In this document: positions 6,160 to 47,903 of the stretch, piece after piece
How the letters are laid out: the number at the start of each line of letters is the position of its first letter
Numbering within the stretch: the stretch's first letter is position 1
Source: Caballeronia sp. SL2Y3
Lineage (GTDB): Bacteria > Pseudomonadota > Gammaproteobacteria > Burkholderiales > Burkholderiaceae
Reading direction: 5' to 3'
Assembly: GCF_022879575.1 (NCBI RefSeq)
Contig: NZ_CP084262.1
Coordinates: 1-64,000, forward strand
DNA: 64,000 nt
Made by a program: the position numbers and the translations under genes
The notes under the pieces: model-generated
Told to the model about the DNA's origin: nothing
The model's database searches: none
The model's input: only the letters and a program-made list of their open reading frames with translations

Positions 6160-6322
6160 GGATTCCTCGAAATGGCTGCATCGCGTCATTCACGCGGAGG
6201 CGGCGATGCTGCGCCCACTGCGCGGCCGAGGGAATCCATCGACCTTTGTATATCGACAGCGGCGCGCCGCACTTGAGTCCGGGAAAACAAGGATGAGAAA
6301 GCGCACGGCCGATCGTTTTATT

Positions 6323-7051: not shown

Positions 7052-7793
7052 GGCGCTTCCACCAGATGCCGTTCTCATTGCGTCCTTTCGGCGCGCGATC
7101 GAGCCATTGATACATGCCCCACAGCGCATCGAGACCACGCGCATACGCCGAATACGTGTGATAGACGACGCCGTCTTCCATCGCGAATGCACTCATGCCG
7201 GGGCGGTCGCGCGTGAAGGTCGGCGCGTCGGTGCCGCACTCGGCGGCGAATGCCTTCACGGGTTCCGGCGCGTCCTTCATGTCCATCGCGTGGCCGCCGC
7301 GCGCAAAGTTATATTCGATGTCGCCCGCGCGCTGCTGCGCCTCGGTGAACGACACGTTGAAGTCGTAGTTGAACTCGCCATCCTTCGCGGACGCCCACGG
7401 AAAGCACCATCCCATGCGCTTTTTGTAGGCCGCGAGCTTGTCGATGGACGCGCGCGACACGGCCCACAGCGCGACATCATGATGCGCGAGATGAACGGCG
7501 AAGCCGTCGAAGCCGTCCGCAATCGACGAGCAAGATGGACAGCCCGCGCTCCAGTCCGGTCCGAACATGAAGTGATAGACGAGCAGTTGCGAGCGCCCGC
7601 CAAAGAGGTCGGCGAGCGTGGCATCGCCGGCTTCGGTATCGAAGCGATATGTCTTGTCGATGCGAACCCACGGCAAAGCCTGACGTTGCCGCGCGAGTTC
7701 GTCGCTGCGGCGCGTGAGGTCCTTCTCGGCTTTCAAGAGATCGAGCCGTGCGGCGAGCCATTCATGGTGTGTCGCAGTGGTGTGAGTCGTCAT
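7032..7793 (-). CDS. DUF899 family thioredoxin-like protein
   Basis: 253 residues. The start follows a good ribosome site (GGAGG, spacing about 7). Family hallmarks are present: EWLAARLDLLKAEKDLTR near the N-terminus, LLVYHFMFGPDW, the Cys pair GCPSCSSIADG in the thioredoxin-like position, and the C-terminal DALWGMYQWLDRAPKGR. The two cysteines flanking PS suggest redox activity, but the family has no established reaction. It is followed by DUF2182 with overlap and is divergent from an HTH regulator at 7923, which may control it. The 129-base gap between them must hold both promoters; no clear -35/-10 pair was seen. Confidence 0.85.
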   Translation of the reverse strand: MTTHTTATHHEWLAARLDLLKAEKDLTRRSDELARQRQALPWVRIDKTYRFDTEAGDATLADLFGGRSQLLVYHFMFGPDWSAGCPSCSSIADGFDGFAVHLAHHDVALWAVSRASIDKLAAYKKRMGWCFPWASAKDGEFNYDFNVSFTEAQQRAGDIEYNFARGGHAMDMKDAPEPVKAFAAECGTDAPTFTRDRPGMSAFAMEDGVVYHTYSAYARGLDALWGMYQWLDRAPKGRNENGIWWKRHDEYAD

Positions 7794-7922
7794 TTGCGTT
7801 GCCTCCGTTGTGCGGCGGTGCGTGCGCACCGGTTTGGTATCCCTTGCAAAGCGCGTCATGCGTGGTGTTAGATTAGTGCCGGGCATCGGACGCGGGGGAG
7901 TGACAAGCGTGTCGGGATTCGC

Positions 7923-9143
7923 ATGGATTCGTTGATGACGGCGGCGGCGCGCGCGCTCGCGGCGGGCGATCCGCTCGGCGCGCTGAATCGCGTGGCGCTG
8001 CGCGACGATGCCCCCGCGCTCGCGCTGCGCGGCATCGCGATGGCGCAGCTCGGCGACTTCCCGCGTGCGAAGACGCTGCTCAGGCGCGCGTCTCGCGCAT
8101 TCGGCGCGAAGGAAGCGGTGGCGCGCGCCCGCTGCGTTGTCGCCGAAGCGGAGATTGCGCTCGCATCGCGCGAACTCGCGTGGCCCGCGAAGGCGCTGGA
8201 CCACGCGCGCGCGACGCTCGAAGCGCACGGCGATCGCATCAACGCAGCGCACGCGCGTTATCTCGACGTGCGACGCGCGCTCCTGATCGGGCGCATCGAC
8301 GAAGCGGAAGACGCGCTTCGCGCGCTCGATGCATCCGCGCTCCCGCCCCCGTTGCGTGCCGCGCATGCGCTGATCGAAGCGGGCATCGCCATGCGCCGTG
8401 TTCAGACAAGAGAAGCCCGCGCCGCGCTGGACCGTGCGAGACAAGCCGCGCGAGTCGCGGGCATTGCCGCGCTGTCAGCGGAAGTCGAACATGCGCGCGC
8501 GCTGCTCGATACGCCCGCTGCACGGCTCATCGCGCAAGGCGAGACGCGTCTTGTGCTGCTCGACGATGTGGAAGCATTGTTCGCATCGAACACGCTCGTG
8601 ATCGACGCGTGCCGCCATGCCGTGCGCGATGCGCAGACAGTGGTCTCGCTCGCCACGCGCCCGGTGCTCTTCACGCTCGCACGCATGCTGGGCGAAGCGT
8701 CGCCCGGCGACGTGCCGCGCGATCGACTCATCGCATCGGCGTTTCGCATGCGTCACGCGGACGAGACGCATCGCGCGCGGCTGCGGGTCGAGATGGGACG
8801 CTTGCGCACGCTGCTGCGGCCGCTCGCGCAGATTCGGGCCACGCGCGACGGGTACGCGCTCGCGCCGCATCGAGCGGCACAGGTGGCCGTGCTCGCGCGG
8901 CCTCTCGACGACGCGCACGCGCCGCTGCTCGCCTGTCTGGCCGACGGCGAAGCGTGGTCGAGTTCCGCGCTCGCCCTTGCGCTCAATGCCAGCCAGCGCA
9001 CGGTGCAACGCGCGCTGGAAACATTGGCCGCCTCGGGCAAGGTGCAGTCGTTCGGGCGCGGCCGCGCGCGCCGGTGGCTCGCGCCGCCCACGCCGGGATT
9101 CGCGTCGGCCTTGTTACTCCCCGCCGACCTCGCGAGCGGCTAG
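7923..9143 (+). CDS. HTH-domain protein of unknown regulon
   Basis: 406 residues, very Ala/Arg-rich. The first 200 residues look like helical, TPR-like repeats (ALALRGIAMAQLGDFPRAK). A second part (residues 280-330) resembles a winged-helix/OmpR-like fold, and a C-terminal HTH is visible in SSSALALALNASQRTVQRAL, followed by a wing with Gly-Arg repeats (GKVQSFGRGRARRW). No membrane segment. Transcribed away from the DUF899-DUF2182 pair and ahead of a beta-propeller gene, so it is a plausible regulator of both. The effector is unknown. In-frame second Met at residue 5 leaves the start slightly uncertain. Confidence 0.7.
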   Translation: MDSLMTAAARALAAGDPLGALNRVALRDDAPALALRGIAMAQLGDFPRAKTLLRRASRAFGAKEAVARARCVVAEAEIALASRELAWPAKALDHARATLEAHGDRINAAHARYLDVRRALLIGRIDEAEDALRALDASALPPPLRAAHALIEAGIAMRRVQTREARAALDRARQAARVAGIAALSAEVEHARALLDTPAARLIAQGETRLVLLDDVEALFASNTLVIDACRHAVRDAQTVVSLATRPVLFTLARMLGEASPGDVPRDRLIASAFRMRHADETHRARLRVEMGRLRTLLRPLAQIRATRDGYALAPHRAAQVAVLARPLDDAHAPLLACLADGEAWSSSALALALNASQRTVQRALETLAASGKVQSFGRGRARRWLAPPTPGFASALLLPADLASG

Positions 9144-21555: not shown

Positions 21556-22197
21556 CTACCAGCGCAGCACGCGCGGCCCGAGCCATGCGCCGATGCAGGC
21601 CGGCAACAGCATGCCGATCGCATACCACACGCTCCAGAACGCGGGGCTCATCTCCGGGCAATGCAGGCAATAGGCGATGGTCGCGAGCGCGCTCGACAGG
21701 AGGCCGGCCACCGCGCCCGCCATGCGCAAATCAGTGGGCGCGAGACTTCTTGCGGCCAGCAGCGCGGCGGGAAACGTCGGCACCGAGAGCAGCACGATAT
21801 TGAACGGACACGTGCGCCACGACTGCCCGAGCACGAGCGGCAAGCGTCCGGCGGGCGTCGCCTGACCGAGCACGAGCGCGCCCGCCAGCCACACTGCGAT
21901 GAACGGCAGCACGATGACCGGCCACGCGACACCGCCGCGCACGCCGGGGCGACCCAGCCGTATCACGGCAATCAGCGAGCCGACCGCGACGCATAGCGGA
22001 AACGCGAGCTTGGCCCAGAACAGGGCCGTCTGCGCGACGCTCGCCAGATCGCGGCGCAGTCCGTACACCACGAGCATCAACAGCACCGAGCCGATGAAAC
22101 CGAGCGGCAGCGCCTGCGCGAAACGGCGGGCGACGGCCGCGCGATCGACGCGCACATCGCCGGCTGCGAGCAGATCGATCAGATCATCGGTTCGCAT
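21556..22197 (-). CDS. nrsF: NrsF-type anti-sigma factor (DUF1109), partner of the upstream ECF sigma factor
   Basis: 213 residues from [10 protein letters not shown], with a short cytoplasmic head and six predicted membrane helices. Conserved cysteines occur in RTCPFN and CLHCPEMSP. In NrsF/OsrA-type anti-sigma factors of Caulobacter and Azospira, periplasmic cysteines are needed to sense metal or oxidant stress and release the sigma factor. The gene overlaps the sigma gene by 14 bases, the usual sigma/anti-sigma arrangement. Start at 22197 is preferred over 22236 because the family begins with this short acidic head. Confidence 0.87.
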
Positions 22198-22753
22198 CGG
22201 ATTCCTCGCTCCTGAAGCCACGAATGCGCGCGGCAAGCGCCTTGAGTCCGCGATGCACGCCCACTTTCACGGCGGATTCCGAGAGCCCCGTGAGTTGCGC
22301 AGTCTGCGCGACCGACAACCCTTCCAGCTTGACGTGGACGATCGGCAGCCGCTGCTTGTCCGGCAACTGTGCGAGGAGCTTGCCGAGGTCGTGACGCGCT
22401 TGAGTCGGCTCGTCGTCGGTGACGGCAAAGAGATCGTCGTGATCGTCGAGGGGATCGTTGAGCGACTCGTGACGCGAACGCGCGCGAAAGAAGTCCATCA
22501 GCTTGTAGCGCGCGATGGCATGAATCCATGCAGTAAGCGGTTCTTCCATGCGATAGGTGTGCCGCGCATTGTGCACCGCCAGCAAGATTTCCTGCACGAG
22601 GTCTTCCACGTCATCGCGATGCTGCGGAATGCGCTTGCGCAAATAGCCGCGCAGATGCCGCGTGAGCGTCTGCAGGAAACCGCGATAGGCGTTCTGGTCG
22701 CCTTCGAGGCCGGAGCAAAGGAGCGTCTTCAGGCGATGTTCCGCGTCATGCAA
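22184..22753 (-). CDS. sigF: ECF RNA polymerase sigma factor, SigF-like
   Basis: Region 2 ([37 protein letters not shown]) and region 4 ([20 protein letters not shown]) are clear. The start is uncertain: TTG at 22753 (LHDAEHRLK) gives 189 residues, the usual ECF length, but has no good ribosome site. The ATG at 22921 lies about 35 bases after the predicted transcription start but adds 56 residues of weak coding character. The gene has the GTAACC-N16-CGAA promoter expected for its own recognition, so it is probably autoregulated. It is co-transcribed with nrsF and divergent from yedZ-yedY-mrpX. Confidence 0.87.
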
Positions 22754-22963
22754 GGCGAGTCCCGTGAAGGCAAGGCGACGAAAGGACGAAGCGAGCGAAC
22801 GCGGCGGGATGCAGACAGCAAGCGCGGCGTAAGCCCGATCATGTTTTAGATCGAGCGTTTCAGAATAGCCGAAGCCACGGCTAGCGGCAATGCCGGCTGT
22901 CTTTGCGCCAATCGTTTTCATCGTATGCGTCGTTGGGGGCGGGTCGTTGCTTGCATACGTTAG

Positions 22964-22989
22964 TTCGCTTGCGATGCGCGCGCGGTTAC
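22964..22989 (-). promoter_or_regulatory. Predicted SigF-dependent promoter of sigF-nrsF
   Basis: On the minus strand GTAACC (22989-22984) is followed by exactly 16 bases and CGAA (22967-22964). This equals the GTAACC-N16-CGAA element I recall for Caulobacter SigF. Transcription would start near 22957. Confidence 0.75.
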
Positions 22990-23033
22990 AGCGCAGCGGC
23001 AAACGCCGTCGAGAAATTTTCTCGATGCGCCCT

Positions 23034-23059
23034 GTAACCGGGCCGACCCGGCGAGCGAA
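23034..23059 (+). promoter_or_regulatory. Predicted SigF-dependent promoter of the yedZ-yedY-mrpX operon
   Basis: GTAACC (23034-23039), a 16-base spacer and CGAA (23056-23059), identical in both boxes and spacing to the divergent copy on the other strand. It gives a leader of about 25 bases before the ATG at 23093. Confidence 0.78.
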
Positions 23060-23092
23060 TTCACGAGTACATCACCCTTATCGGCAACGATC

Positions 23093-23722
23093 ATGGACAC
23101 GACACTCGACGCCCCGCCCGAGAGCCTGCAACGCAAGCATCCGGTTCATCCGCTATGGCTGCGCATCACGCATTGGCTCAACGCCGTGGCCGCGCTCATC
23201 ATGATGTTCTCTGGCTGGCGCATCTACGACGCATCGCCGGTCTTCGCGCGCATCGTCATTCCGCCTTCCATCACGCTCGGCGGCTGGCTCGGCGGCGCGC
23301 TCCAGTGGCACTTCGCCGCGATGTGGCTGCTCGTCTTCAACGGACTCGCGTATCTCGCGCTAAACGTAGCGAGCGGACGCTTCTTCTCGAAGTTCTTTCC
23401 GTTATCGCCCCGCGCGGTCGTGCATGACCTCGTCGCGGCGATGCGCGGCAAGCTCTCGCACGAGAATCCGCGCGAGTACAACGCGGTGCAGAAGCTCGCG
23501 TACCTCGTGGTCGTGCTCGATCTCATCGTGCTCGTGCTGTCCGGTCTTGCCATCTGGAAGTCCGTGCAGTTTCCGTTGCTGCGTGAACTGATGGGCGGCT
23601 ACGACAACGCGCGCGTCGTTCACTTTTGCGCGATGGCGGTCATGGCGGCGTTCGTGGTGGTGCATGTCGTGATGGTCGCGCTCGTGCCGCGTTCGCTGCT
23701 TAGCATGCTGCGCGGTCGTTGA
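23093..23722 (+). CDS. Membrane cytochrome b, YedZ1/cytochrome b561-like
   Basis: 209 residues with four membrane helices and haem-ligand histidines in RITHWLNA, LQWHFAAMW and the helix with HFCAMAVMAAFVVVHVV. Family: bacterial cytochrome b561/Ni-Fe-hydrogenase b type. It would pass electrons from quinol to the periplasmic molybdoenzyme encoded next (18-base gap), as MsrQ/YedZ does for MsrP/YedY, though it is a different haem-protein family from MsrQ. First gene after the predicted SigF promoter. The ribosome site is weak. Confidence 0.87.
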   Translation: MDTTLDAPPESLQRKHPVHPLWLRITHWLNAVAALIMMFSGWRIYDASPVFARIVIPPSITLGGWLGGALQWHFAAMWLLVFNGLAYLALNVASGRFFSKFFPLSPRAVVHDLVAAMRGKLSHENPREYNAVQKLAYLVVVLDLIVLVLSGLAIWKSVQFPLLRELMGGYDNARVVHFCAMAVMAAFVVVHVVMVALVPRSLLSMLRGR

Positions 23723-23740
23723 ACGAAGGGAGCCCACGCC

Positions 23741-24517
23741 ATGAAGACCCAAGGTAAAAAGATCGTCACGCTCGACCGCGCATCCGTGCTCGCCGATGCC
23801 ACGCGCGAACTCGCCATGCCGTCGCGACGCCTCTTCGGCAAGCGCATGCTCACGCTCGGCGGGCTGTCGTTGTTGACCGGTTGCTCGATCACCGACGAAG
23901 ACTCCGTCAACACGTTTCTCGGCGCCGTTTCGCGCCTGAACGATCGCGTGCAGGCGTTGCTGTTCGACCCGACGCGCCTCGCGCCCACATACAGCGAGGC
24001 GCAGCTCACGCGGCCGTTCCCGTTCAATGCGTACTACGGCATCGACAACGTGCCTCATGTGAATGGCGCGGACTACCGGCTAAAGGTGAGCGGTCTCGTG
24101 ACGGGCCAGCGCGTCTGGACGCTGCCGGAGCTTTACGCGTTGCCCCACGCCGAGCAGATCACGCGGCACATCTGCGTGGAAGGCTGGAGCGCGATAGGGC
24201 GCTGGGGCGGCACGCCGTTCCGCGAATTTCTGCGGCGCGTCGGCGCGGACACGACTGCGAAGTACGTCGGCTTCCGCTGCGCCGACGACTATTACGAAAG
24301 CATCGACATGCCCACGGCGCTGCATCCGCAGACGCTGCTCACGTTCGAGTATGACGGCGAGCGTTTGCCCGCGAAATACGGCTATCCGATGAAGCTGCGC
24401 ATGCCGACGAAGCTCGGTTACAAGAACCCGAAGCATATCGTCGAAATCTTCGTCACTAACGCGTATCCCGGCGGCTATTGGGTCGACCAGGGCTACAACT
24501 GGTTCGGCGGTTCATGA
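23741..24517 (+). CDS. YedY-like molybdopterin oxidoreductase (predicted methionine sulfoxide reductase)
   Basis: 258 residues of the sulfite-oxidase fold. Cys145 in RHICVEGWSAIGRWGG is the molybdenum ligand. The N-terminus has twin arginines (SRRLFGK, residues 28-34) and, twelve residues on, a lipobox-like LLTGC at 44-48, so it is Tat-exported and possibly lipid-anchored. In Azospira, a SigF-controlled YedY1 reduces methionine sulfoxide formed on the Met-rich peptide MrpX by hypochlorite; the order and promoter here are the same. The enzyme family is certain; the substrate follows from context. Confidence 0.88.
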   Translation: MKTQGKKIVTLDRASVLADATRELAMPSRRLFGKRMLTLGGLSLLTGCSITDEDSVNTFLGAVSRLNDRVQALLFDPTRLAPTYSEAQLTRPFPFNAYYGIDNVPHVNGADYRLKVSGLVTGQRVWTLPELYALPHAEQITRHICVEGWSAIGRWGGTPFREFLRRVGADTTAKYVGFRCADDYYESIDMPTALHPQTLLTFEYDGERLPAKYGYPMKLRMPTKLGYKNPKHIVEIFVTNAYPGGYWVDQGYNWFGGS

Positions 24518-37640: not shown

Positions 37641-39176
37641 ATGGCTACGACGACGGACGACGTGACCCTCGCCCCGGCGCACGGCGAGCGCGGCGCATAC
37701 CTGGAACTCGACGGCATTACCGTGAGCTTCCCGGGCGTGCGCGCGCTCGACGGCGTGTCGCTGTCGGTGCGCGCGGGCGAAGTGCACGGCTTGATGGGCG
37801 AGAACGGCGCGGGCAAGTCAACCTTGCTTAAGGTGCTTTCGGGCGTCAACAGGCCGCAAGCGGGAACGCTCAAGCTCAATGGCGCGGAACACCGCTTTAC
37901 GACGACACGCGAGGCGATTGCAGCGGGCATCGCGATCATCTATCAGGAACTGCACCTCGTGCCGGAACTGACGGTGGCCGAGAACCTGATGCTCGGGCAA
38001 TTGCCGAACCGCGCGGGCGTGCTCGACGAACGCGCGCTCGTCAAGCGCGCGATGGCCGAACTGGAACGACTCGGCGAACGGATCGATCCGCGCACGCCGG
38101 TGAAGAACCTCTCCATCGGCCAGCGGCAGATGATCGAGATCGGCAAGGCGTTGATGCGCGACGCGCGCGTCATCGCGTTCGATGAGCCGACGAGCTCGCT
38201 CTCCGCGCGCGAGACGAAGCAACTGTTCCGCATCATCGACGCGCTGCGCGCCGACGGCCGCGCGATCATCTACGTCACGCATCGCATGGACGAAGTCTAT
38301 GAACTGTGCGACCGCGTGACTGTGTTCCGCGATGGCCGGCGCATCGAGACCTTCGATTCCGTCGCGGGCCTTTCGCGCGACCGGCTGATCGCGTGCATGG
38401 TCGGCCGTTCGATCGCGGATGTCTATGGCTATCGCTCGCGCGAAGCCGGCGACGTGATGATCGAGGCGAAAGGGCTGCTCGGGCCGGGCCTTTCCGAGCC
38501 CGTGTCGTTCAGCGCGCGGCGCGGCGAGATTCTCGGCTTCTTCGGTCTCGTGGGCGCGGGGCGTTCCGAACTGATGAAACTGCTTTACGGCGCGACGAAA
38601 GCGAGCGAAGGCCATGTCGAACTGAAGGGCAAGCGCGTGGCGTTTTCCAGTCCGCGCGATGCGGTTCGCGCGGGCATTGCGCTGTGCCCCGAAGACCGCA
38701 AGCAGGAAGGCATCGTCGCGATTGCATCCGTCGCGGACAACCTCAACATCAGCGCGCGCCGTCATTTCAGCCCTGCGCGCTTTCTGCTGGATGCGCGCCG
38801 CGAGCGCGCGCTCGCGCAGGAATACATCGCGAAGCTCGCGATTAAGACGCGCAGCGGCGAAACCGCTATCGGCACGCTGTCGGGCGGCAATCAGCAGAAG
38901 GTGATTCTCTCGCGCTGGCTCGCGGAACGCATCGACGTGTTCCTGATGGACGAGCCCACGCGCGGCATCGACGTCGGCGCGCGCGCCGAGATCTATAACC
39001 TTCTGTATGAGCTTGCCGAAGCGGGACGCACGGTGATTCTCGTGTCGAGCGATCTGGCCGAAGTGATCGGCGTGTCGGATCGCATCATCGTGATGAAAGA
39101 AGGACGCATTGCCGGCGCGCTGCCGAAGTCGCAGGCGACGCCGGACGAACTGATCAAGCTCGCATTGCCCCGCTGA
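37641..39176 (+). CDS. araG: L-arabinose ABC importer, ATPase
   Basis: 511 residues in two fused ABC halves. The first has Walker [10 protein letters not shown], signature LSIGQRQM and Walker [12 protein letters not shown]. The second has the degenerate Walker [15 protein letters not shown] usual for sugar ATPases of this class, signature LSGGNQQKV and [11 protein letters not shown]. It begins six bases after araF with only a weak ribosome site, so coupling to araF translation is likely. Confidence 0.94.
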
Positions 39177-39228
39177 CTGCTGACCCCAGCGGCGGCCCCG
39201 GAAAGACGAAACGAATTAGAGCCAAGCC

Positions 39229-40227
39229 ATGCAAACTCCAGGCACTTCCTCCCCGAGCGATGCTCAAGCGCCCATTGCGCCCTCGCAGGCGCGCATGTGG
39301 GACCTCATCAACAAGTCGGGCATCGTCGTGGTGTTCCTGGTGCTGTTCGCGGTGCTCTCCGTCACGGTGCCGGGCTTTCTCACGCCCCGCAATATTCAGG
39401 GGCTGCTGCTCTCTGTGACGCTGATCGGCTCCATCGCGGTCACGATGATGTTCGTGCTCGCGCTCGGCGAAGTCGATCTCTCGGTGGCATCCATCGTCGC
39501 GTTCGCGGGTGTGATGGCATCGACCGTCATCACCGCGACGCATAGCGTCATGCTCGGCATCACGGCGGGCATTCTTGCGGGCGGCGCGGTCGGACTGGTG
39601 AACGGCGTGCTGATCGCGCGCTTCAAGATCAATTCGCTGATCGCGACGCTCGCGATGATGGAAGCGGTGCGCGGTCTCGCGTTCCTCACCTCCAACGGCG
39701 ACGCCGTGATGATCTCCGAAGAGCGGTTCTTCGATCTCGGCGGCGGTTCGTTCCTCGGCATCTCGTATCCGATCTGGAGCAACATCATCGGCTTCGTCGT
39801 ATTCGGCTTCCTGCTGAAGAAGACGGTGTTCGGCAAGAACGTGCTGGCCGTCGGCGGCAATAGCGAGGCGGCCGTGCTCGCGGGCCTGCCGGTCACGCGC
39901 ATCAAGATCACCGTGTTCGTGCTGCAAGGGCTCGTGACCGGCTTCGCAGGCGTCATGCTCGCATCGCGCATGAGTCTCGGCGACCCGAAGACATCGGTCG
40001 GGCTCGAACTCGGCGTGATTTCCGCGTGCGTGCTGGGCGGCGTGTCGCTGACGGGCGGCGTCGCGACGATCTCGGGCGTGCTCGTCGGCGTGCTCATCAT
40101 GGGCGCGGTGCAGGACGCAATGAGCCTGCTCAACGTCCCGACGTTCTATCAATACCTGATTCGCGGCGGCATTCTGTTGCTCGCCGTGCTGTTCGACCAG
40201 TTCAGGCGCAGCAAGCGCGCGGTCTGA
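39229..40227 (+). CDS. araH: L-arabinose ABC importer, permease
   Basis: 332 residues with eight or more membrane helices; the family motif GEVDLSVASIVAFAGVMAS and GGVSLTGGVATISGVLVGV are typical of the RbsC/AraH permeases. Last gene of the arabinose operon. Confidence 0.94.
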   Translation: MQTPGTSSPSDAQAPIAPSQARMWDLINKSGIVVVFLVLFAVLSVTVPGFLTPRNIQGLLLSVTLIGSIAVTMMFVLALGEVDLSVASIVAFAGVMASTVITATHSVMLGITAGILAGGAVGLVNGVLIARFKINSLIATLAMMEAVRGLAFLTSNGDAVMISEERFFDLGGGSFLGISYPIWSNIIGFVVFGFLLKKTVFGKNVLAVGGNSEAAVLAGLPVTRIKITVFVLQGLVTGFAGVMLASRMSLGDPKTSVGLELGVISACVLGGVSLTGGVATISGVLVGVLIMGAVQDAMSLLNVPTFYQYLIRGGILLLAVLFDQFRRSKRAV

Positions 40228-40294
40228 ACGATACGGGCTGCGGGCGTCGAGAATCCGCAAAGAATGACAAAAACGCCTCGAAACTAGGCAGACG

Positions 40295-40323
40295 CCCGTC
40301 ACCGTGTAAACTAACGGGTTTTT
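40295..40323 (+). terminator. Weak terminator candidate after araH
   Basis: CCCGT and ACGGG pair over a 14-base loop and are followed by TTTTT. The 5-bp stem is short; the same stretch (TGTAAACT) could instead be a -10 region for the DUF3348 gene. Confidence 0.3.
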
Positions 40324-40338
40324 GCCTGCGGTGTTATC

Positions 40339-41040
40339 GTGCAAGCCCCCACGCGCACGGCGATCAGCGGGCCGGCGCTCGTGCGCCTGCTCGCGCGTTT
40401 CGCCGATCTCGATGTTCACGCACCCGGTTCCTCGCTGTCGGACCGTCTGAGCCAGTGGCTCGGCTGGACCGACGCGATCGCGCTGTCCACCGCGCTCGGC
40501 GGCGATCCGCCGGCCATTCCCGGCGTGCGATCCGCATTCGACGGCGAAGAACAAGCCTGCGCGCGCGTGCGTGCGTCGCTGACGAGCGCCATCGTCGGCG
40601 ACAAGGGTAACGCTCCGGGCGCTCACCGGCGACGCGCGCCGGTGCAGGCACCGCCTCCTGACCTGGCCGTGGAGTACGCCGTCTATCGACAGCGGTATCT
40701 GTCGCTGCAACAGGCGATGGAAGCCGAGATCGGCTCGCTGCGCGCCCGCGTGCGCGCGACGCTCGCGGCGAAGTCGACGCGCATGGCGCGTCTTGCCGTC
40801 GTCGATGCCGTGATGGAACAGGCGCTCGCCGCACGCGAACGCACGCTCTTGGCGCAAGCGCCGGCGCTCCTCGGCAAGCATTTCCAGCGCATGCGCAGCG
40901 CGCATCAGGCGTCTTCCGACGACGCATCCGCATGGCTCGGCGTCTTCGAACAGGACATGCAAAGCGTCCTGCGCGCCGAACTGCACGTACGTTTCCAACC
41001 GGTCGATGGTTTGCTCGCGGCATGTCAAACCGCTCACTGA
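40339..41040 (+). CDS. DUF3348 family protein, first gene of the motor-like block
   Basis: 233 residues from a GTG start; no signal peptide or membrane helix. The N-terminal 70 residues (ALVRLLARFADLDVHAPGSS, LSQWLGWTDAIALSTAL) and the helical Arg/Ala-rich second half (YAVYRQRYLSLQQAMEAEI) are those of the DUF3348 family, which has no known function. It lies immediately upstream of the MotA-like gene (5-base gap) and is probably a cytosolic partner of that complex, perhaps binding its coiled-coil tail. This role is inference from the operon. Confidence 0.8.
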   Translation: MQAPTRTAISGPALVRLLARFADLDVHAPGSSLSDRLSQWLGWTDAIALSTALGGDPPAIPGVRSAFDGEEQACARVRASLTSAIVGDKGNAPGAHRRRAPVQAPPPDLAVEYAVYRQRYLSLQQAMEAEIGSLRARVRATLAAKSTRMARLAVVDAVMEQALAARERTLLAQAPALLGKHFQRMRSAHQASSDDASAWLGVFEQDMQSVLRAELHVRFQPVDGLLAACQTAH

Positions 41041-41045
41041 ACGCT

Positions 41046-43478
41046 ATGCCCCGTTACCTTCTGAATGTAGCTGTCTTTCTCGTGGGCCTCCTGGCCGTCT
41101 GCGGTATAGCCATTGGTTATATCGGCTCGAATGCGCTCGCGCTCGTGGTCACGCTCGTGATCGGCGCGTGCTATCTCGCGGGCGCGTCGGAGTTGCAGCG
41201 CTATCAGCAAACGACGCGCGAACTGGCCACGGCAGTCGGCGCATTGAACGCAACGCCTTCGAGCCTTGCGTCGTGGCTCGAACACGTGCCCGCGAGTCTG
41301 TGCAATGCGGTGCGTTCGCGCGTCGAAGGCGAACGCACGGCGTTGCCCGGTCCCGCGCTCGCGCCGTATCTCGCGGGCTTGCTTGTCTTGCTCGGCATGT
41401 TGGGCACGCTGCTCGGCATGGTCGCGACGCTGCGTGGCACAGGCGCCGCGCTCGAAAGCTCGACCGATCTCGCGGCTATCCGCGCATCGCTGGCCGCGCC
41501 GGTGACGGGCCTCGGCTTCGCGTTCGGCACGTCGATAGCAGGCGTCGCGACCTCCGCGATGCTCGGCTTGCTCTCCACGCTATGCCGTCGCGAACGCCTG
41601 CACGTCGCGCAACTGCTCGACATGAAGACCGCGACGACGTTGCGGCCTTTCACGCAGACGCATCAGCGCGAAGAGACGTTCCGCTTGCTTCAACGTCAGA
41701 CCGAGATCATGCCGAAGCTCGTCGATCGTCTTCACGCGATGATGAGCGCCATCGAACAGCAGAGCGTGGCCGCGAACGAGCGGCAGTTGGCGAATCAGGC
41801 CGCGTTTCATGCGAATACGGAGACGGCGTACCGGCGTCTTGCGACCTCGGTGGAACTGTCGTTGAAGCAAAGCGTGGCCGACAGCGCGCGCGCGGCGAGC
41901 GCCGCATTGCAGCCCGTGATGCAGGCGACGATGGACGGCATCGCACGCGAAACGAAGGCGTTGCACGGCAGTATCGAAGAGGCTGTGGGGCGACAACTCG
42001 ATGGCTTGTCGAACGGCTTCGAGGCTTCCGCGCAGAAGATCGCCGGCATCTGGGATCGCTCGCTGCAAGGGCATCAGGCGTCGAACGAGGCGCTCGTCGA
42101 CAAGATGAATGCGTCGCTGGAACGCTTCGCGCAAGGCTTCGAAGAACGGTCTTCGACGCTGATCGAAGACGTGTCGTCGCGCATGAAGCAGACAGCGGAC
42201 GGACTCGACGCAACGCTTGTCAAACATGAAGAAGCGAGCGCGGCGCTCGTCACGCAGACGGGTGCTTCGCTGGATCGTTTCGCGCAAGCCGTGGACGAGC
42301 GCTCGCAGAATCTGGCCGCCGGCATGGCGACGCACATCAACGGTGTAACGACCGAATTGCATGCTTGCGTCGAGAAGATCGCCGCCGCTTTGAACGAGTC
42401 GGTCGTGAAGCACGAGCAGACGAGCGCGGCGCTCGCCACGCAGACAGGCGTTTCGCTCGATGGCTTCGCGAGCCGTTTCGAGGCACGCGCGAGCGACTTG
42501 CTCGCAGGGATCTCGTCGCGGCTCGAAAGCACATCGGCTGGCATCTCGGACGCCTGGCGCAGCGCGCTTGCCGCGCAACAGCAGGCGGGCGAGCAACTCG
42601 CCGCGCAGCATCGGGGCGCATTGAACGAGGCGACTGAACGCTTCGAAGCCCACTCGGCATCGCTCCTGAAGTCGGTCGATGAAGCCCATGCGAAGCTCGC
42701 CGCAGAACTCGCATCGAACAACGATGCTCGCCTGAACGCGTGGACCGAAGCCCTCGGCGCGGTATCCGTGACCTTGCGCGACGAATGGCAGCAGACGAGC
42801 ACGTTCGTCGAGCGCCGTCAGCAGGAAATCTGCGACACGCTCGCGCGCACGGCGAGCGAGATGTCGGACGCGTCGCGCTCGCATGCGAACGGTCTCATCG
42901 CTGAAATCGAAAAGCTCATGCAGGCTGCATCGCAAGCGCCCAAGGCCGCGGCTGAAGTGGTCGCGGAAATGCGGCAGATGCTCTCCGATTCGATGGTGCG
43001 CGACACCGCCATGCTGGAGGAGCGCAGCCGCCTGCTCGCCACGCTGCACACGCTTCTCGATGCCGTGAATCTCGCGTCAACCGAGCAACGCACGGCCGTC
43101 GATGCGCTCATCTCCACGTCGGCGGATCTGCTCGCGCGCGCAGGCACGCAATTCAGCGACAAGATCGAAAGCGAAGGCGCGAAGATCAGCGCGGTGGCCG
43201 CGCAAGTTACCGGCAGTGCCGCCGAAGTGGCGAGCCTCGGCGAAGCGTTGGGCGCGGCCGTCGAGTCCTTCGGCGCGGCGAACGAGACGCTCGTCACGCA
43301 TTTGCAGCGCATCGAAACGGCGCTCGACAAGACGCTCTCGCGCAGCGACGAGCAGCTTGCTTATTACGTCGCGCAGGCGCGCGAAGTCATCGACCTGAGC
43401 GTGATGTCGCAGAAGCAGATCGTCGAAGACCTGCAACGCATTGCCGGACAGCGTGAGTTGGACGGAGCGCGCGCATGA
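41046..43478 (+). CDS. DUF802 MotA/TolQ/ZorA-like membrane channel subunit with long coiled-coil tail
   Basis: 810 residues. Membrane helices at about 4-25, 28-48, 108-128 and 152-178. The third and fourth (LLVLLGMLGTLLGMVATLRG and APVTGLGFAFGTSIAGVATS) carry the Gly/Thr pattern of MotA/TolQ/ExbB proton channels and especially of ZorA. Residues about 185-810 form a long Ala/Glu/Ser-rich helical tail with DUF802 repeats (KHEEASAALVTQTGASLDRF and kin). A membrane channel carrying a cytoplasmic tail of some 600 residues is the ZorA layout. An alternative start at 41022 would add eight residues. It overlaps the MotB-like gene in ATGA. Confidence 0.82.
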   Translation: MPRYLLNVAVFLVGLLAVCGIAIGYIGSNALALVVTLVIGACYLAGASELQRYQQTTRELATAVGALNATPSSLASWLEHVPASLCNAVRSRVEGERTALPGPALAPYLAGLLVLLGMLGTLLGMVATLRGTGAALESSTDLAAIRASLAAPVTGLGFAFGTSIAGVATSAMLGLLSTLCRRERLHVAQLLDMKTATTLRPFTQTHQREETFRLLQRQTEIMPKLVDRLHAMMSAIEQQSVAANERQLANQAAFHANTETAYRRLATSVELSLKQSVADSARAASAALQPVMQATMDGIARETKALHGSIEEAVGRQLDGLSNGFEASAQKIAGIWDRSLQGHQASNEALVDKMNASLERFAQGFEERSSTLIEDVSSRMKQTADGLDATLVKHEEASAALVTQTGASLDRFAQAVDERSQNLAAGMATHINGVTTELHACVEKIAAALNESVVKHEQTSAALATQTGVSLDGFASRFEARASDLLAGISSRLESTSAGISDAWRSALAAQQQAGEQLAAQHRGALNEATERFEAHSASLLKSVDEAHAKLAAELASNNDARLNAWTEALGAVSVTLRDEWQQTSTFVERRQQEICDTLARTASEMSDASRSHANGLIAEIEKLMQAASQAPKAAAEVVAEMRQMLSDSMVRDTAMLEERSRLLATLHTLLDAVNLASTEQRTAVDALISTSADLLARAGTQFSDKIESEGAKISAVAAQVTGSAAEVASLGEALGAAVESFGAANETLVTHLQRIETALDKTLSRSDEQLAYYVAQAREVIDLSVMSQKQIVEDLQRIAGQRELDGARA
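42069..42720 (+). repeat. Internal DUF802-type repeats in the coiled-coil tail
   Basis: Four diverged units of about 50-62 residues start near 42069, 42222, 42409 and 42573. The second and third share KHE(E/Q)(A/T)SAAL(V/A)TQTG(A/V)SLD. Each has a short ERFEARS-like segment about 15 residues later. They suggest growth of the tail by duplication. Confidence 0.6.
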
Positions 43479-44122
43479 ACGAAGAACTCGATGGCGGCAT
43501 CGAGAGCGCCGCGCCCATCTGGGCCGCTTTCGCGGACCTGATGTCGGTGCTTCTCGGCGCGTTCGTGCTGATACTCGTCGCAGTCATCGGCGTGCAGTTG
43601 CAGCTTTCGACGAAGCTCGAACAGGCCGTAAAGGAACGGCAACAGGAAGCGCAGCGGCGCAAGACGCTGGAACAGGCGCTCGCCGGACCGCTCGCGTCCG
43701 GGCGCGTGACGCTCGTGAACGGGCGCATCGGGATCAGCGGGAACGTGTTGTTCGCGCTCAATTCGGACCAGCTGCAACCGCAGGGGCGTGATGTGCTCAA
43801 GAGCCTCGCTGGCCCGCTGTCCGCGTATCTCGGCACGCACGATCAAGTCTTGATGGTGAGCGGTTTCGCCGACGACCAGCAGGTTCGCGAAGGCAATCGC
43901 CGGTTCGCGGATAACTGGGAGCTGTCGGCCAAGCGCGCGCTGACCGTGACGCGCGCTTTGATCGATGCAGGCGTTGCGCCGTCATCGGTATTCGCGGCGG
44001 CCTTCGGCTCGGAGCAGCCCGTCAGTTCCAATGCCGACGATGAAGGCCGCGCGAAGAACCGCCGCGTCGAGATATCCGCTGTGCCGCGTCCGACGAACTC
44101 GCTGGTGAAGCCTCGTGGATGA
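43475..44122 (+). CDS. MotB/ZorB-like OmpA-domain stator protein
   Basis: 215 residues. Residues 14-42 (PIWAAFADLMSVLLGAF and on) form a single membrane helix with Asp21 at the position of the proton-binding Asp of MotB/ExbD/TolR. After a helical linker (VKERQQEAQRRKTLEQAL) comes an OmpA peptidoglycan-binding domain with NWELSAKRALTVTRALID and GRAKNRRVEIS. Together with the DUF802 protein it should build an ion-driven 5:2 motor in the inner membrane anchored to the cell wall. Start overlaps the DUF802 stop; its end overlaps DUF2894 by eight bases. Confidence 0.88.
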   Translation: MNEELDGGIESAAPIWAAFADLMSVLLGAFVLILVAVIGVQLQLSTKLEQAVKERQQEAQRRKTLEQALAGPLASGRVTLVNGRIGISGNVLFALNSDQLQPQGRDVLKSLAGPLSAYLGTHDQVLMVSGFADDQQVREGNRRFADNWELSAKRALTVTRALIDAGVAPSSVFAAAFGSEQPVSSNADDEGRAKNRRVEISAVPRPTNSLVKPRG

Positions 44123-44696
44123 CGGCATGAATGCCCGCGCGATGCTCGACGCATGGCGCGCGCGCGGCGAGCATCGCATCAATCCCGTGCGTTATCGCTT
44201 CATCGAGGCGCTGGCGCGGCGGGCCACGACGCATGAAGGCGAGGCGAGACGCATCATCGACGCGCGCCTGTCATCGCTCTTGAACGACTACGCGGATACG
44301 GTCGCGCAGTCAGTCGCCCGCCAAGCCGTTGCAGCGCATGCGCCGAAAGGACCGCTTGCCGTGTTGCTCGACGACATGGCGCGGCACGCGGCCACGCATC
44401 CGTCGCATGAAGAACTGCTGGAGTATTTGCGGGGCGTCTGGTCGAAAGTCAGCGCCGAGCGGCAGTTGCGGGAGTCGCAGCAGAAGGTGCCGAAGAACGC
44501 CGGTCCGCTCAATTCAAGCAGCCTCGTGCATCGTTCGCTTGCATTGATGCGTGAGGCTTCGCCGGAATACTTGCAGCATTTCCTCGCGTACGTCGACACG
44601 CTTTCATGGATGGAAGAGATGACAGGCGCGAACGCGCCTGCCGGAAAAGAAGCGCCGCGCGCGAGAAAGCCTGCGCGCGGCCGCAGTGCGCCCTAG
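44115..44696 (+). CDS. DUF2894 family protein, last gene of the motor-like block
   Basis: 193 residues from GTG at 44115, or from ATG at 44127 (MNARAMLDAW). Soluble and helical; the first 35 residues (LDAWRARGEHRINPVRYRFI) and the late segment HRSLALMREASPEYLQHFLAYVDTLSWME mark DUF2894, function unknown. It closes the four-gene operon by overlap with the MotB-like gene. Cytosolic, with a basic, disordered C-terminus (RARKPARGRS). Its TAG stop shares the bases CTAG with the converging transketolase stop. Confidence 0.8.
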   Translation: MDDGMNARAMLDAWRARGEHRINPVRYRFIEALARRATTHEGEARRIIDARLSSLLNDYADTVAQSVARQAVAAHAPKGPLAVLLDDMARHAATHPSHEELLEYLRGVWSKVSAERQLRESQQKVPKNAGPLNSSSLVHRSLALMREASPEYLQHFLAYVDTLSWMEEMTGANAPAGKEAPRARKPARGRSAP

Positions 44697-45691
44697 CCGA
44701 GCCAGCCCTTGATGGTGCTCGCCATCACGTTCGTGGAGATGCCGTAGCGGTCGTGAAGGGTAGGCAAGGCGCCCGCATCGAGGAACGCATCGGGCAGCGC
44801 GATTTGCCGGAATGCAGGCGTCACGCCGGCGCTCAGCAGTGCGCACGCCACCGCTTCGCCCAGACCGCCGATCACCGTATGATTCTCCGCGACCACGACA
44901 AGCCGGCCCGAGCGCCGCGCTTCGCGAATGATCGTTTCGGTGTCGAGCGGCTTGATCGTCGGCACATGAAGAACGGCCACGTCGACGTTATCCGCTTCCA
45001 GCGCCTTCGCGGTTTCGAGCGCGCGCATCGTTAGTATCCCTGATGAAATGACGAGTACGTCGGAGCCGTCGCGCAGCATCTTCGCCTTGCCGAGTTCGAA
45101 GCGATAGCCATATTCGTCGAGCACGGCGGGCACGTTGCCGCGCAAGAGGCGAGCATAGACCGGCCCCTTGTGTGCGGCGATGGCCGGCACCATCTGCTCG
45201 ATGTCGAGCGCATCGCACGGGTCGATAACGGTCATGTTCGGCATCGCGCGCATCAACGCGAGATCTTCGGCTGCCTGATGGCTCGGGCCGTAGCCCGTTG
45301 TGAGACCGGGCAGCGCGGCGACGATCTTCACGTCGAGGTTGTCTTCCGCGATCGTCTGGTGAATGAAGTCATACGCGCGGCGCGTCGCAAAGACCGCATA
45401 CGTCGTGACAAACGGCTGCGCGCCTTCATGTGCGAAGCCGGCGGCCGCGCCCATCAACAACTGCTCGGCCATGCCCATCTGGTAGTAACGCTCCGGGAAT
45501 TCCTTGCCGAAGATATGCAGGTCGGTGTACTTGCCGAGATCGGCCGTCATGCCGATCACGTTCGGCTTCGAGCGCGCCAGTTCGGCGAGCGCATGGCCGA
45601 ACGGCGCGGAACGTGTGACTTGTCCCTCGCTTGCGATCGAGGCGATCATCGCGGAGGTCTTCAAACGCGGCTTCTTTTCGATGGTGCTCAT
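44693..45691 (-). CDS. Transketolase-like protein, C-terminal subunit
   Basis: 332 residues, AGGAG before the ATG. Contains the pyrimidine-binding domain (GMTADLGKYTD, RYYQMGMAEQLLMGAAAGFA) with the catalytic Glu, then the transketolase C domain (RLVVVAENHTVIGGLGEAVA). It needs the N-terminal subunit encoded 14 bases upstream to form an active TPP enzyme. Split transketolases of this type serve particular catabolic pathways (for example apulose-4-phosphate or sulfosugars) rather than the pentose phosphate pathway. Sugar here not known. Confidence 0.9.
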   Translation of the reverse strand: MSTIEKKPRLKTSAMIASIASEGQVTRSAPFGHALAELARSKPNVIGMTADLGKYTDLHIFGKEFPERYYQMGMAEQLLMGAAAGFAHEGAQPFVTTYAVFATRRAYDFIHQTIAEDNLDVKIVAALPGLTTGYGPSHQAAEDLALMRAMPNMTVIDPCDALDIEQMVPAIAAHKGPVYARLLRGNVPAVLDEYGYRFELGKAKMLRDGSDVLVISSGILTMRALETAKALEADNVDVAVLHVPTIKPLDTETIIREARRSGRLVVVAENHTVIGGLGEAVACALLSAGVTPAFRQIALPDAFLDAGALPTLHDRYGISTNVMASTIKGWLG

Positions 45692-45705
45692 GCTGTTCTC
45701 CTGGC

Positions 45706-46542
45706 TTACCGGCTCGATTCGAGTGCTTCCAGCGCGAGTTGCCACTCGTGCGCATCGACTCGGATGAAGTGATTCTTCTCGCGCTGTTCGAGGAACGGCA
45801 CGCCGCAGCCCATCTTCGTATCGCATACGATGATGCGCGGCTTCGCTTCGTTCAGATTGCGCGCGTTGTCGAAGGCTTCCTTCACGGCGTCGATATCGTT
45901 GCCGTTCACGCGCTGCACGTACCAGCCGAACGCTTCGAGCTTCGGCACGAGCGGTTCGAACGCCATGATCTGCGTCGACGGGCCATCGGCTTGCTGATTG
46001 TTCACGTCGATCATCGCGATCAGGTTGTCGAGCTTCCAGTGCGCGGCGGACATCAAGCCTTCCCAGATCGCGCCTTCGTCGAGCTCGCCATCGGAGAAGA
46101 GCGTATAGACGAAAGACTTCGAGTTCTTGCGCTTGAGTCCGAGACAGCGGCCCACTGCAATAGTCAGACCCTGGCCGAGCGAGCCGCCCGACATTTCCAT
46201 GCCCGGCGTATAGCTCGCCATGCCGGACATCGGCAGACGGCTGTCGTCGCTGCCATACGTTTCGAGTTCTTCTTGCGGCAGGATGCCGGCTTCGAAGAGG
46301 GCTGCGTACAGCGCAATCGCGTAGTGACCGTTCGACAGCAGGAAGCGGTCGCGCTCTTCCCATTCCGGATCTTCGGGGCGGTAGTTCATCGCGCCGAAGT
46401 AACTCACGGCCAATACATCGGCGATATCCAGCGCCTGACCGATATAGCCCTGGCCCTGCACTTCGCCCATCAAAAGGGCGTTGCGGCGAATGCGATAGGC
46501 GCGCTCGGCGAGCGTCACCTCCTCGATAACGGGACTGCTCAT
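45706..46542 (-). CDS. Transketolase-like protein, N-terminal (TPP-binding) subunit
   Basis: 278 residues from MSSPVIEEVT. The TPP-binding signature runs from SDGELDEGAIWEG to DVNNQQADG, and MSGGSLGQGLTIAVG is the phosphate-binding loop. Length and sequence match split transketolase N subunits. Second of two subunits in an operon with an MFS carrier and an SDR dehydrogenase. Confidence 0.9.
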   Translation of the reverse strand: MSSPVIEEVTLAERAYRIRRNALLMGEVQGQGYIGQALDIADVLAVSYFGAMNYRPEDPEWEERDRFLLSNGHYAIALYAALFEAGILPQEELETYGSDDSRLPMSGMASYTPGMEMSGGSLGQGLTIAVGRCLGLKRKNSKSFVYTLFSDGELDEGAIWEGLMSAAHWKLDNLIAMIDVNNQQADGPSTQIMAFEPLVPKLEAFGWYVQRVNGNDIDAVKEAFDNARNLNEAKPRIIVCDTKMGCGVPFLEQREKNHFIRVDAHEWQLALEALESSR

Positions 46543-46574
46543 GTTCGTCTCCTTGAAATGATAGATAGGAATGC

Positions 46575-47903
46575 TTATCGATTCACCGTCTTCGCAGGCA
46601 CGAGGAAAACCAGCGCCGCGCCGACGACGACCGCAGCCGAGATAAAGATCAGGCCAGCCGTGGACTTGCCCGTGAGATCGTTGAGCCAGCCGACGATGGC
46701 GGGCGAGAAGAAGCCCGCGAGATTGGCGAAGCAGTTGACCGCCGCGATGCCCGCCGCCGCCGACATTCCGCCGAGCACGGCAGTAGGCAGCGACCAGAAC
46801 TGCGACGACGAAGCGAGAATGCCCGCAGCGGCGACGCTCACACAGACGATCGACGCGCCCACGCTGCCGAGCATCGGCAAGGTGGCGAAGCCGGCGGCGG
46901 CGACAAGCATCGGAATCGCGAGATGCAGACGGCGTTCGCGGTGCTTGTCGGCACTCGCCCCGATCAGCGGCAGCGCGACGATGGCGCACAGATACGGGAT
47001 CGCGGTGAAGATGCCGACCCACAGCGGGTCCGCCACGCCAGCGCGACGCACGATAGTCGGCAGCCAGAACGTGAGGCCATACTGACCCAGCACGACGCAG
47101 AAGTAGATCGCGGCCATGAGCCACAGACGCCGGTCGCCGATGAACGAGCGGATCGACACGTGTTCCAGCTTTTGCGCGTTGTCCTTCTCGACATTGCGGG
47201 CGAGGAGCGTTTTTTCCGCATCCGTGAGCCACTTCGCGCTGGCAATGCCATTGTCGAGATAGAAGAGAATCACGACGCCGAGCACGAGCGATGGCAACGC
47301 TTCAAGGATGAAGAGCCACTTCCATCCCGCGAGCCCGTGCGCGCCTTGCAGCGCATGCATGATGTAACCGGAAAGCGGCCCGCCGATGATGCCCGCGAGC
47401 GGGATCGCCATGAAGAACAGCGACAATGCTTTCGCTCGGCGCGCGGCGGGGAACCAGTAAGTCAGATACAGAATGACGCCCGGTGCAAAGCCTGCCTCGG
47501 CCACGCCGAGTAGAAAGCGCAGGACATAGAACAGGGTCGGCGACTTCACGAACACGAAGCTCGCCGAGATCACGGCCCACGTCAGCATGATGCGGGCGAG
47601 CCAGTTGCGCGCGCCCACCCTGTGCAGTATCACGTTGCTCGGCACTTCGAAAAGAAAATAGCCGAGAAAGAAAATGCCTGCGCCGACGCCATAGATGGTT
47701 TCGGAAAAGCGCAAGTCATTGAGCATTTGCAGCTTCGCAAAGCCGACGTTGACGCGATCCAGATACGCGCCGAGATAGCACAGCATCAGGAACGGTATGA
47801 GACGGCGTCCGACCTTCGCATACGTCTTTGCTTCGAAAGTGGCGGTGTCGGCCGACGACGAGATATCCGCTGCGAGCGGCGGCGCGGTAAAGCGAGGTTT
47901 CAT
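46575..47903 (-). CDS. MFS transporter, anion:cation symporter (ACS) family
   Basis: 442 residues, 12 membrane helices, with the ACS-family features LIPFLMLCYLGAYLDRVNVGFAK (helix 1) and PGVILYLTYWFPAARRAKA (loop 4-5). Members take up organic acids and sugar acids such as glucarate, tartrate or threonate. Here it probably imports the substrate of the SDR/transketolase pathway encoded around it. Confidence 0.92.
   Translation of the reverse strand: MKPRFTAPPLAADISSSADTATFEAKTYAKVGRRLIPFLMLCYLGAYLDRVNVGFAKLQMLNDLRFSETIYGVGAGIFFLGYFLFEVPSNVILHRVGARNWLARIMLTWAVISASFVFVKSPTLFYVLRFLLGVAEAGFAPGVILYLTYWFPAARRAKALSLFFMAIPLAGIIGGPLSGYIMHALQGAHGLAGWKWLFILEALPSLVLGVVILFYLDNGIASAKWLTDAEKTLLARNVEKDNAQKLEHVSIRSFIGDRRLWLMAAIYFCVVLGQYGLTFWLPTIVRRAGVADPLWVGIFTAIPYLCAIVALPLIGASADKHRERRLHLAIPMLVAAAGFATLPMLGSVGASIVCVSVAAAGILASSSQFWSLPTAVLGGMSAAAGIAAVNCFANLAGFFSPAIVGWLNDLTGKSTAGLIFISAAVVVGAALVFLVPAKTVNR

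Follow-up and report, generated by a model that had tools for sequence, protein, structure and literature searches.

A tight four-gene operon in a 64,000-nucleotide stretch of the Caballeronia sp. SL2Y3 genome (contig NZ_CP084262.1, positions 1 to 64,000; hereafter the window) raises the question of what a membrane motor resembling the ZorAB pair of the Zorya phage-defense system does between two proteins of the DUF3348 and DUF2894 families, and whether the four form a system not described before, as an earlier note on this DNA had proposed. Profiles of PADLOC-DB name all four genes as Zorya type III components (E 5.8e-74 to 0), and zorAB lies between the DUF3348 and DUF2894 genes in a single cluster at the window and at 40 other loci, which is the type III arrangement. 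Zorya type III was named by Payne et al. (2021; PMC8565338), who counted 6,401 instances, and the proposal of an undescribed system is rejected on the strength of that publication and of the four profile matches. Judged by its sequence matches, the Caballeronia operon is a complete Zorya type III system, already described; it adds one more copy to a system already in print, and its discovery value is low.

The layout given by the earlier note is exact: the four open reading frames form a tight operon on the plus strand, with intergenic distances of 5, -4 and -8 bases (Table 1), and Pfam assigns each to its family, DUF802 at 8.6e-35 in four stretches. Order and strand of the four genes are preserved in all 41 loci of a set composed of the window and 40 loci chosen by a DUF3348 hit (31 from the family labeled f1, five from f26, four from f35 and one from f44). 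Among the best 80 of 533 matches to ZorB, at named loci that span Caballeronia, Paraburkholderia, Burkholderia, Ralstonia, Cupriavidus, Achromobacter, Trinickia, Pararobbsia, Dyella, Rudaea and others, all four genes are present in 75, with the place of the missing gene lying beyond a contig end in the other five. The linkage exceeds chance, and the four genes co-occur in the other genomes surveyed. Naming is less uniform: PADLOC-DB calls the DUF2894 protein ZorF and the DUF3348 protein ZorG, the text of PMC8565338 does the reverse, and Mariano et al. agree with the latter rather than with PADLOC-DB.

Table 1. Coordinates of the type III operon and its features (positions in the window).
Feature	Position	Strand	Description
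Short upstream stretch, possibly the operon's own promoter region	40260..40338	+	partial conservation in six Caballeronia loci
DUF3348 gene (ZorG3 in PADLOC-DB; ZorF in Payne 2021 text)	40339..41040	+	233 aa; PF11828 1.5e-83; PDLC00658 4.5e-91
ZorA3/DUF802 gene	41046..43478	+	810 aa, MotA/ExbB/TolQ-type membrane core and long helical tail (predicted); PDLC00650 E 0, 1208 bits
Thr121 codon of ZorA	41406..41408	+	invariant polar residue in third hydrophobic stretch, 41/41; aligned with Thr of GT motif in 8vvn_C
Thr162-Ser163 codons of ZorA	41529..41534	+	invariant polar pair in fourth hydrophobic stretch, 41/41; aligned with TS pair of 8vvn_C
ZorA tail from residue 185	41598..43475	+	626 residues, 11/3-like hydrophobic period; length polymorphic in relatives
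Four DUF802 repeats in ZorA tail	42006..42668	+	PF05650 at 42006-42164, 42192-42314, 42345-42503, 42510-42668
ZorB3/OmpA gene	43475..44122	+	215 aa, one membrane helix and predicted OmpA-like peptidoglycan-binding domain; PDLC00651 2.2e-115; PF00691 2.5e-17
Asp21 codon of ZorB, ion-path aspartate	43535..43537	+	41/41 homologues; alignment offset places it at residue 24 of 8vvn_B
DUF2894 gene (ZorF3 in PADLOC-DB; ZorG in Payne 2021 text)	44115..44696	+	193 aa; PF11445 7.3e-53; PDLC00652 5.8e-74

The membrane core of ZorA carries the features expected of a motor subunit. Its hydropathy profile has a block at residues 1-51, with space for two helices, a block at 98-132 and weaker peaks within 142-180, a pattern compatible with the four membrane helices that had been claimed for the DUF802 protein, without proving them. 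Thr128 is as invariant among the homologues as Thr121, Thr162 and Ser163 (Table 1); the residues expected of a Ser/Thr ring are present, and the ring is putative. Searched against the PDB, a profile of the core reached two chains at E 5 or better, namely 8vvn_C (E 8.6e-5, residues 109-182), which is the sole significant relative, and an aquaporin at E 1.2, while the single ZorA sequence of the window found no relative there at 0.01. In the comparison with ZorA and MotA families that the earlier note had suggested, besides the type III profile (E 0), the PADLOC profiles ZorA1 and ZorA2 match within residues 107-192 (1.4e-6 to 0.015), whereas the NCBIfam profile ZorA_1 (18.1 bits, cut-off 190) and the Pfam family MotA_ExbB (12.2 bits, cut-off 22.9) stay below their cut-offs. 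Nor does the NCBIfam type I ZorA profile exceed its cut-off in any of 61 relatives, 13 of which, the window's genome included, match it below the cut-off at E 0.001. As a separate observation, sub-threshold type I ZorA matches of at most 68.6 bits (against 190) occur in four genomes on contigs other than that of DUF3348 (G004 C96, G010 C45, G011 C1 and G007 C320; loci L238-L241), and these are possibly another ZorA-like or coiled-coil protein. From chain length and residue numbers rather than from PDB titles, we take 8vvn_C to be a type I ZorA, and 8vvn_B and 8qyd_F to be type I ZorB. The first is a chain of the MotA/TolQ/ExbB type, and its 696 residues agree with the length of the type I ZorA from Shewanella (PMC11890865).

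The partner, ZorB, is predicted to carry an OmpA-like peptidoglycan-binding domain, and its membrane aspartate, Asp21, the loss of which in homologues had been named as evidence against a motor, is retained in every homologue (Table 1), so that both properties ascribed to this protein by the earlier note stand. In a phmmer alignment of ZorB residues 10-77 with residues 13-80 of 8vvn_B, Asp21 falls at residue 24, and Asp24 is the critical aspartate named for type I Zorya (PMC11890865); the equivalent aspartate, the peptidoglycan-binding residues and the tail are all required for defense in types I and II (PMC11890865). The ZorB profile aligns with 8vvn_B (8-207, 1.8e-7) and 8qyd_F (10-200, 6.4e-7) over almost all of the length they have in common. 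Through the OmpA domain it also reaches many MotB and OmpA chains, and MotB and PomB chains score better, yet they align from residue 51 or later.

The weak MotA_ExbB match and the OmpA domain would also be expected of a diverged flagellar stator or of a TolQ/ExbB-type energy module unlinked to Zorya. The same MotA_ExbB match stays below its cut-off, however, and neither the 626-residue tail, nor the strength of the PADLOC ZorA3 and ZorB3 matches, nor the identity of the nearest solved relative of the core (8vvn_C) accords with such a module, which we reject, by the cut-offs and the nearest relatives, as very improbable. A ZorAB-type motor, as the earlier note had it, is supported by the PADLOC ZorA3 and ZorB3 matches, the alignments with 8vvn_B and 8vvn_C and the invariant ion-path residues.

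The cytoplasmic coiled-coil tail of about 600 residues that had been described for ZorA is recovered as 626 residues following residue 184. After residue 230 the protein contains 2 prolines, and its hydrophobicity repeats every 3.66 residues, with a power of 25 where shuffled sequences set a 99% limit of 8.1. The value is close to the 11/3 typical of hendecad coiled coils, and nine other ZorA tails have periods of 3.575 to 3.665; this periodicity points to a long helical tail. Its length varies widely, with ZorA ranging from 675 to 1229 residues at 117 loci (76 of the 80 named loci and the set of 41, in which some genomes possibly occur twice and the 737 residues of locus L211 may represent a cut frame). 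In places the variation is stepwise: four Burkholderia loci (L215, L198, L205 and L195) have ZorA proteins of 775, 855, 935 and 1015 residues that differ by an 80-residue block at each step and are 90 to 93% identical elsewhere, and three Paraburkholderia-type loci (L178, L210 and L174; one of them titled Burkholderia sp. OK233) have proteins of 698, 785 and 871 residues that differ by an 87-residue block, at 84% identity. Internal repeats of the 80- or 87-residue period occur in the longer tails of both series, while the 929-residue protein of L176 gives periods of 22 and 11 first, and many further lengths occur outside these two series. Unlike at other loci, the frame recovered for ZorA at L211 of Paraburkholderia tropica (5025-8001) stops about 765 bases short of ZorB, perhaps by a frame break in the tail.

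What distinguishes the operon from Zorya types I and II is the pair of soluble partners. AlphaFold2 models DUF3348 as eight helices (mean predicted local distance difference test score, pLDDT, 84.7; predicted template modeling score, pTM, 0.79) and DUF2894 as seven (mean pLDDT 78.1, pTM 0.43), the latter with a low-confidence C-terminus and an unsure overall arrangement. Pfam and NCBIfam-type profile searches placed no nuclease, helicase or ATPase family above cut-off for either protein, and Foldseek found no solved fold for either at E 0.001 or better, a missing match that excludes nothing. For DUF2894 there are chance-level matches to a PIN-type family (E 0.23), to another PIN-type family in one of 64 relatives (0.047), to Csn2 (0.068) and to the DNA-binding KfrA_N in three of 64 relatives (best 0.012), all of which are discounted. 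Missing matches of this kind would not prove that DUF3348 and DUF2894 are without catalysis. No PADLOC-DB profile of ZorC, ZorD or ZorE matches any of the four operon proteins, and beside the operon no additional gene cluster recurs in more than 13 of the 41 loci, in agreement with the earlier proposal that DUF3348 and DUF2894 occupy the place of ZorC-E.

In the published model, ZorAB recruits a nuclease-like complex in all subtypes (PMC11890865). The recognizable content of the operon does not fit this model, and therefore type III either draws on a nuclease from outside the operon or operates in another way. A gated ion leak would need no nuclease: DUF3348 and DUF2894 would keep ZorAB shut, and infection would open it and depolarize the membrane, as in the older abortive-infection idea for Zorya that is described in Payne et al. 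(PMC8565338). Such a leak would be consistent with the lack of a recognizable nuclease, with two partners predicted to be all-helical and with the proposal of Payne et al. that both proteins regulate ZorAB (PMC8565338); against it, a later report on types I and II has the motor act ahead of an effector that is a nuclease or nickase (PMC11890865), and we regard the leak as improbable.

It is reasonably likely, in our view, that the complete type III operon encodes an ion-driven ZorAB motor equipped with helical adaptors that signal to an outside effector. By homology to the ZorA5B2 complexes of types I and II, ZorA and ZorB would most likely assemble in a 5:2 ratio into a peptidoglycan-tethered, ion-driven rotary motor, in which a push on the envelope, or damage to it, would probably make ZorB engage the peptidoglycan. 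Ions would then pass the ZorB aspartate, Asp21, and the ring of Thr and Ser residues in ZorA, and the long ZorA tail would move and thereby carry the signal into the cytoplasm, where DUF3348 and DUF2894, most likely as adaptor or regulator, would bind the tail and relay the signal to an effector not encoded in the operon. The mechanism suggested in the earlier note agrees with the published proposal, and the observation on which that note rested was borne out in each testable detail.

Published work has demonstrated defense for a single homologue, placed in Escherichia coli, and in a native host it is unproven. When carried by E. coli BL21-AI, the type III system of Stenotrophomonas nitritireducens reduced plating for at least one phage, and liquid cultures were protected against phage PVP-SE1 at a multiplicity of infection below 0.1 (PMC8565338). 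Searches of open-license papers showed us no native-host deletion of Zorya type III; a phrase search found the type named in PMC8565338, PMC11890865, PMC11953036 and PMC12584637. A Variovorax study lists a PADLOC Zorya type III (PMC11953036), and a study of Cupriavidus necator H16, in which other systems were deleted, lists a Zorya whose type is unstated in the available text (PMC12645576). Three sets of observations weigh against an ordinary defense system, and they also speak for a different reading, in which the Burkholderiaceae keep the operon as a near-core machine of their envelope, such as a wall sensor or mover, that has been filed as defense for its likeness to ZorAB, with protection in E. 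coli as a side effect or secondary use. One is a CRISPR interference screen of predicted defense genes in Burkholderia cenocepacia K56-2, which has a PADLOC-predicted Zorya III: the knock-down left fitness against phage Bcep176 unchanged, in a screen limited to one phage, in which guides were too few for three of the 34 genes, and the authors give other reasons for the outcome (PMC12584637). Protection by a homologue transferred to E. coli counts on the other side (PMC8565338).

A second observation is the distribution of the operon. DUF3348 is present in 207 of 299 Burkholderiaceae genomes, as a single match in 200 of them and as two in seven; rpoB, searched as a completeness check, is present in 295. 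As a yardstick for ordinary defense we used HSDR_N, a domain of type I restriction, which occurs in 111 of the 299 (108 over the cut-off); being a single family it is a thin control, and other defense families may be more or less patchy. In genomes of at least 4.5 Mb, a limit picked after absences were seen to cluster in small genomes, DUF3348 is found in 199 of 214 as against 90 of 214 for HSDR_N, and below that limit in 8 of 85 as against 21 of 85; none of the 39 genomes of genus group g36, of about 2 Mb, has it. Among the large genomes it is present in 33 of 34 of g1, 34 of 39 of g27, 29 of 29 of g34, 40 of 40 of g35, 3 of 3 of g37, 2 of 3 of g39, 2 of 3 of g40, 32 of 35 of g44, 14 of 15 of g48 and 10 of 11 of g49, and is absent from the single genomes of g31 and g41. 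Type III is thus near-fixed in the large Burkholderiaceae genomes of this sample, which is atypical of a patchy defense system and, like the predominance of single matches, suits an envelope machine. The 15 large genomes that lack DUF3348 indicate that it is dispensable, and its patchiness outside the Burkholderiaceae (70 of 198 genomes in f35, 55 of 200 in f26 and 20 of 398 in a phylum sample) likewise speaks against such a machine.

Some of the second matches in this survey may be remnants. At G014 C422, about 21630-23901, a Caballeronia locus has DUF3348 split over two frames and a ZorA piece with a stop, and is a broken copy; G074, G110 and G280, with two DUF3348 matches each and weaker best E-values, perhaps contain broken copies of the same kind.

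The third set of observations concerns the neighbors, which are mostly metabolic or transport genes and again atypical of a defense system: at the window the nearest encode a sugar-type ATP-binding cassette (ABC) transporter (binding protein, ATPase and permease), a transketolase, a major facilitator superfamily transporter and a short-chain dehydrogenase. Two proteins per side at 41 loci make 164 flanking proteins. A scan of 146 of them gave matches at 1e-10 to 18 PADLOC families, no family in more than two proteins (strongest MzaA, 2.6e-57); three of these families match the ABC-transporter ATPase of the window itself, and several others bear helicase-type names. TonB receptors, transporters, transketolase and regulators are among the Pfam matches listed for the flanks (25 of 117 families). 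The scan for defense profiles, which has no counterpart at random genomic positions, is descriptive rather than statistical, and in it the two genes per side show little sign of a defense island. Of the two points for which the earlier note suggested a neighborhood survey, the four genes do travel together in the sampled loci, and few defense profiles stand in the sampled flanks. Flanks are shared within g35 (four loci), g34 (two), g48 (two of three) and subgroups of g1, as a near-core machine would lead one to expect; against it, they are not shared within g27, little so within g44 and hardly between genera.

Mobile or island-borne defense cargo at the window was considered and rejected, with no tRNA gene in the window and no Rfam hit in 38000-47000, integrases and transposases not having been searched specifically. 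In 72,556 plasmid records ZorB occurs 26 times (E 1e-40), each time on a plasmid of at least 366 kb from the Burkholderiaceae or a few relatives, 19 predicted to be non-mobilizable and 7 mobilizable; phage records hold 14 partial ZorB matches at E 1e-5, none of which covers 80% of the protein. In the window's genome, which belongs to g1, the operon lies on contig C3 and rpoB on contig C1, so that the operon is probably on a secondary replicon. Upstream of the operon, 40260-40338 is partly conserved between the window and loci L080, L081, L082, L084 and L085, although three of the six loci diverge beyond it (220-bp alignment); since a promoter scan of the upstream stretch found no sigma-70 consensus site, its promoter role is one that we infer.

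Descent of the operon was examined on a tree built from the joined sequences of its four proteins (39 rows). The species tree set beside it, from which G111 (no rpoB match) and G145 (no rpoB frame recovered) are absent, rests mainly on rpoB because rpoC was recovered for 19 of the 39 genomes. (In G145, contigs C23 and C49 each hold an rpoB gene, and the two differ in length class, which suggests contamination.) Genus labels change 16 times on the operon tree, against a minimum possible of 15 and a shuffle mean of 28.2; g35, g48 and g34 each form one fully supported clade, g1 and g27 need two changes each, and g44 needs four, a number equally low in 86 of 500 shuffles. Copies from f35 and f44 nest inside f1 on the operon tree, whereas f1, g1 and g27 are clades on the rpoB tree with support of 100, 98.9 and 96.5. 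A first tree (FastTree) had hinted at several cross-genus moves, of which clade tests bore out one: in the approximately unbiased test, enforced clades of f1 (p 0.143) and g1 (0.218) were not rejected, and that of g27 was (0.02, uncorrected for three tests), which suggests horizontal transfer of the operon in this one genus and leaves strictly vertical descent possible but unproven.

The four genes are under purifying selection. In three Caballeronia pairs the ratio of nonsynonymous to synonymous substitution rates (dN/dS) is 0.00, 0.00 and 0.06 for ZorB, 0.11, 0.13 and 0.22 for ZorA, 0.19, 0.14 and 0.35 for DUF3348 and 0.15, 0.21 and 0.24 for DUF2894, compared with 0.00 to 0.11 for common neighbors, apart from one exception at 0.19 to 0.23, and 0.013 and 0.022 for rpoB (two pairs). 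ZorB, with dN of 0.000 to 0.034 at dS of 0.21 to 0.57, is nearly unchanged between species, as a housekeeping part would be; DUF3348 and DUF2894, which relative to dS evolve faster than nearly all common neighbors, one excepted, do not conform to that picture, and their faster drift beside a conserved motor might fit parts that face a changing partner.

Near-universal presence and few defense neighbors together mean that a housekeeping machine has to be reckoned with, and we judge the near-core envelope machine filed as defense to be rather unlikely. A broader form of the idea, in which the type III motor would be a standing near-core envelope machine, a rotor anchored to peptidoglycan with two helical adaptors and a cytoplasmic arm of variable length, serving a general task such as wall-damage sensing of which defense is one use, we consider unlikely; if it were true, the classical types I and II would have branched off as mobile forms in which nucleases were added to a motor of this kind. 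For the motor that signals through adaptors to an outside effector, which we prefer, the puzzle is that a supposed defense system is near-fixed in the sampled large genomes of one family, has few defense-profile matches among its sampled neighbors and contains no recognizable nuclease, against a model built on nuclease recruitment (PMC11890865). The points for specialists are the missing recognizable effector and the presence of the operon in nearly every large Burkholderiaceae genome of the sample, and the roles of DUF3348 and DUF2894 would show both whether the Zorya motor acts without a nuclease of its own and whether some profile-called 'defense systems' are cell-envelope machines.

Set among known systems, the operon can be placed at three levels of likeness. 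The motor principle is common to the flagellar stators MotAB and PomAB, to TolQR and ExbBD, and to ZorAB; the OmpA-like peptidoglycan domain of the MotB-like subunit recurs in ZorB, while the Caballeronia ZorA differs from these motors in its sub-threshold MotA_ExbB score and its long tail. Closer are Zorya types I and II (PMC11890865; 8vvn_B, 8vvn_C and 8qyd_F), with which the ZorA core and ZorB align, the ion-path Asp and Thr/Ser residues are kept and a long ZorA tail is shared; unlike the Caballeronia operon, with no match to them, these types carry ZorC and ZorD or ZorE, and the Caballeronia ZorA falls far below the cut-off of the type I profile. Closest is Zorya type III (Payne et al., 2021, PMC8565338; PADLOC-DB PDLC00647-00658), from which no distinguishing feature was found and whose published tested member comes from Stenotrophomonas: all four genes and their clustering are common to it and to the Caballeronia locus.

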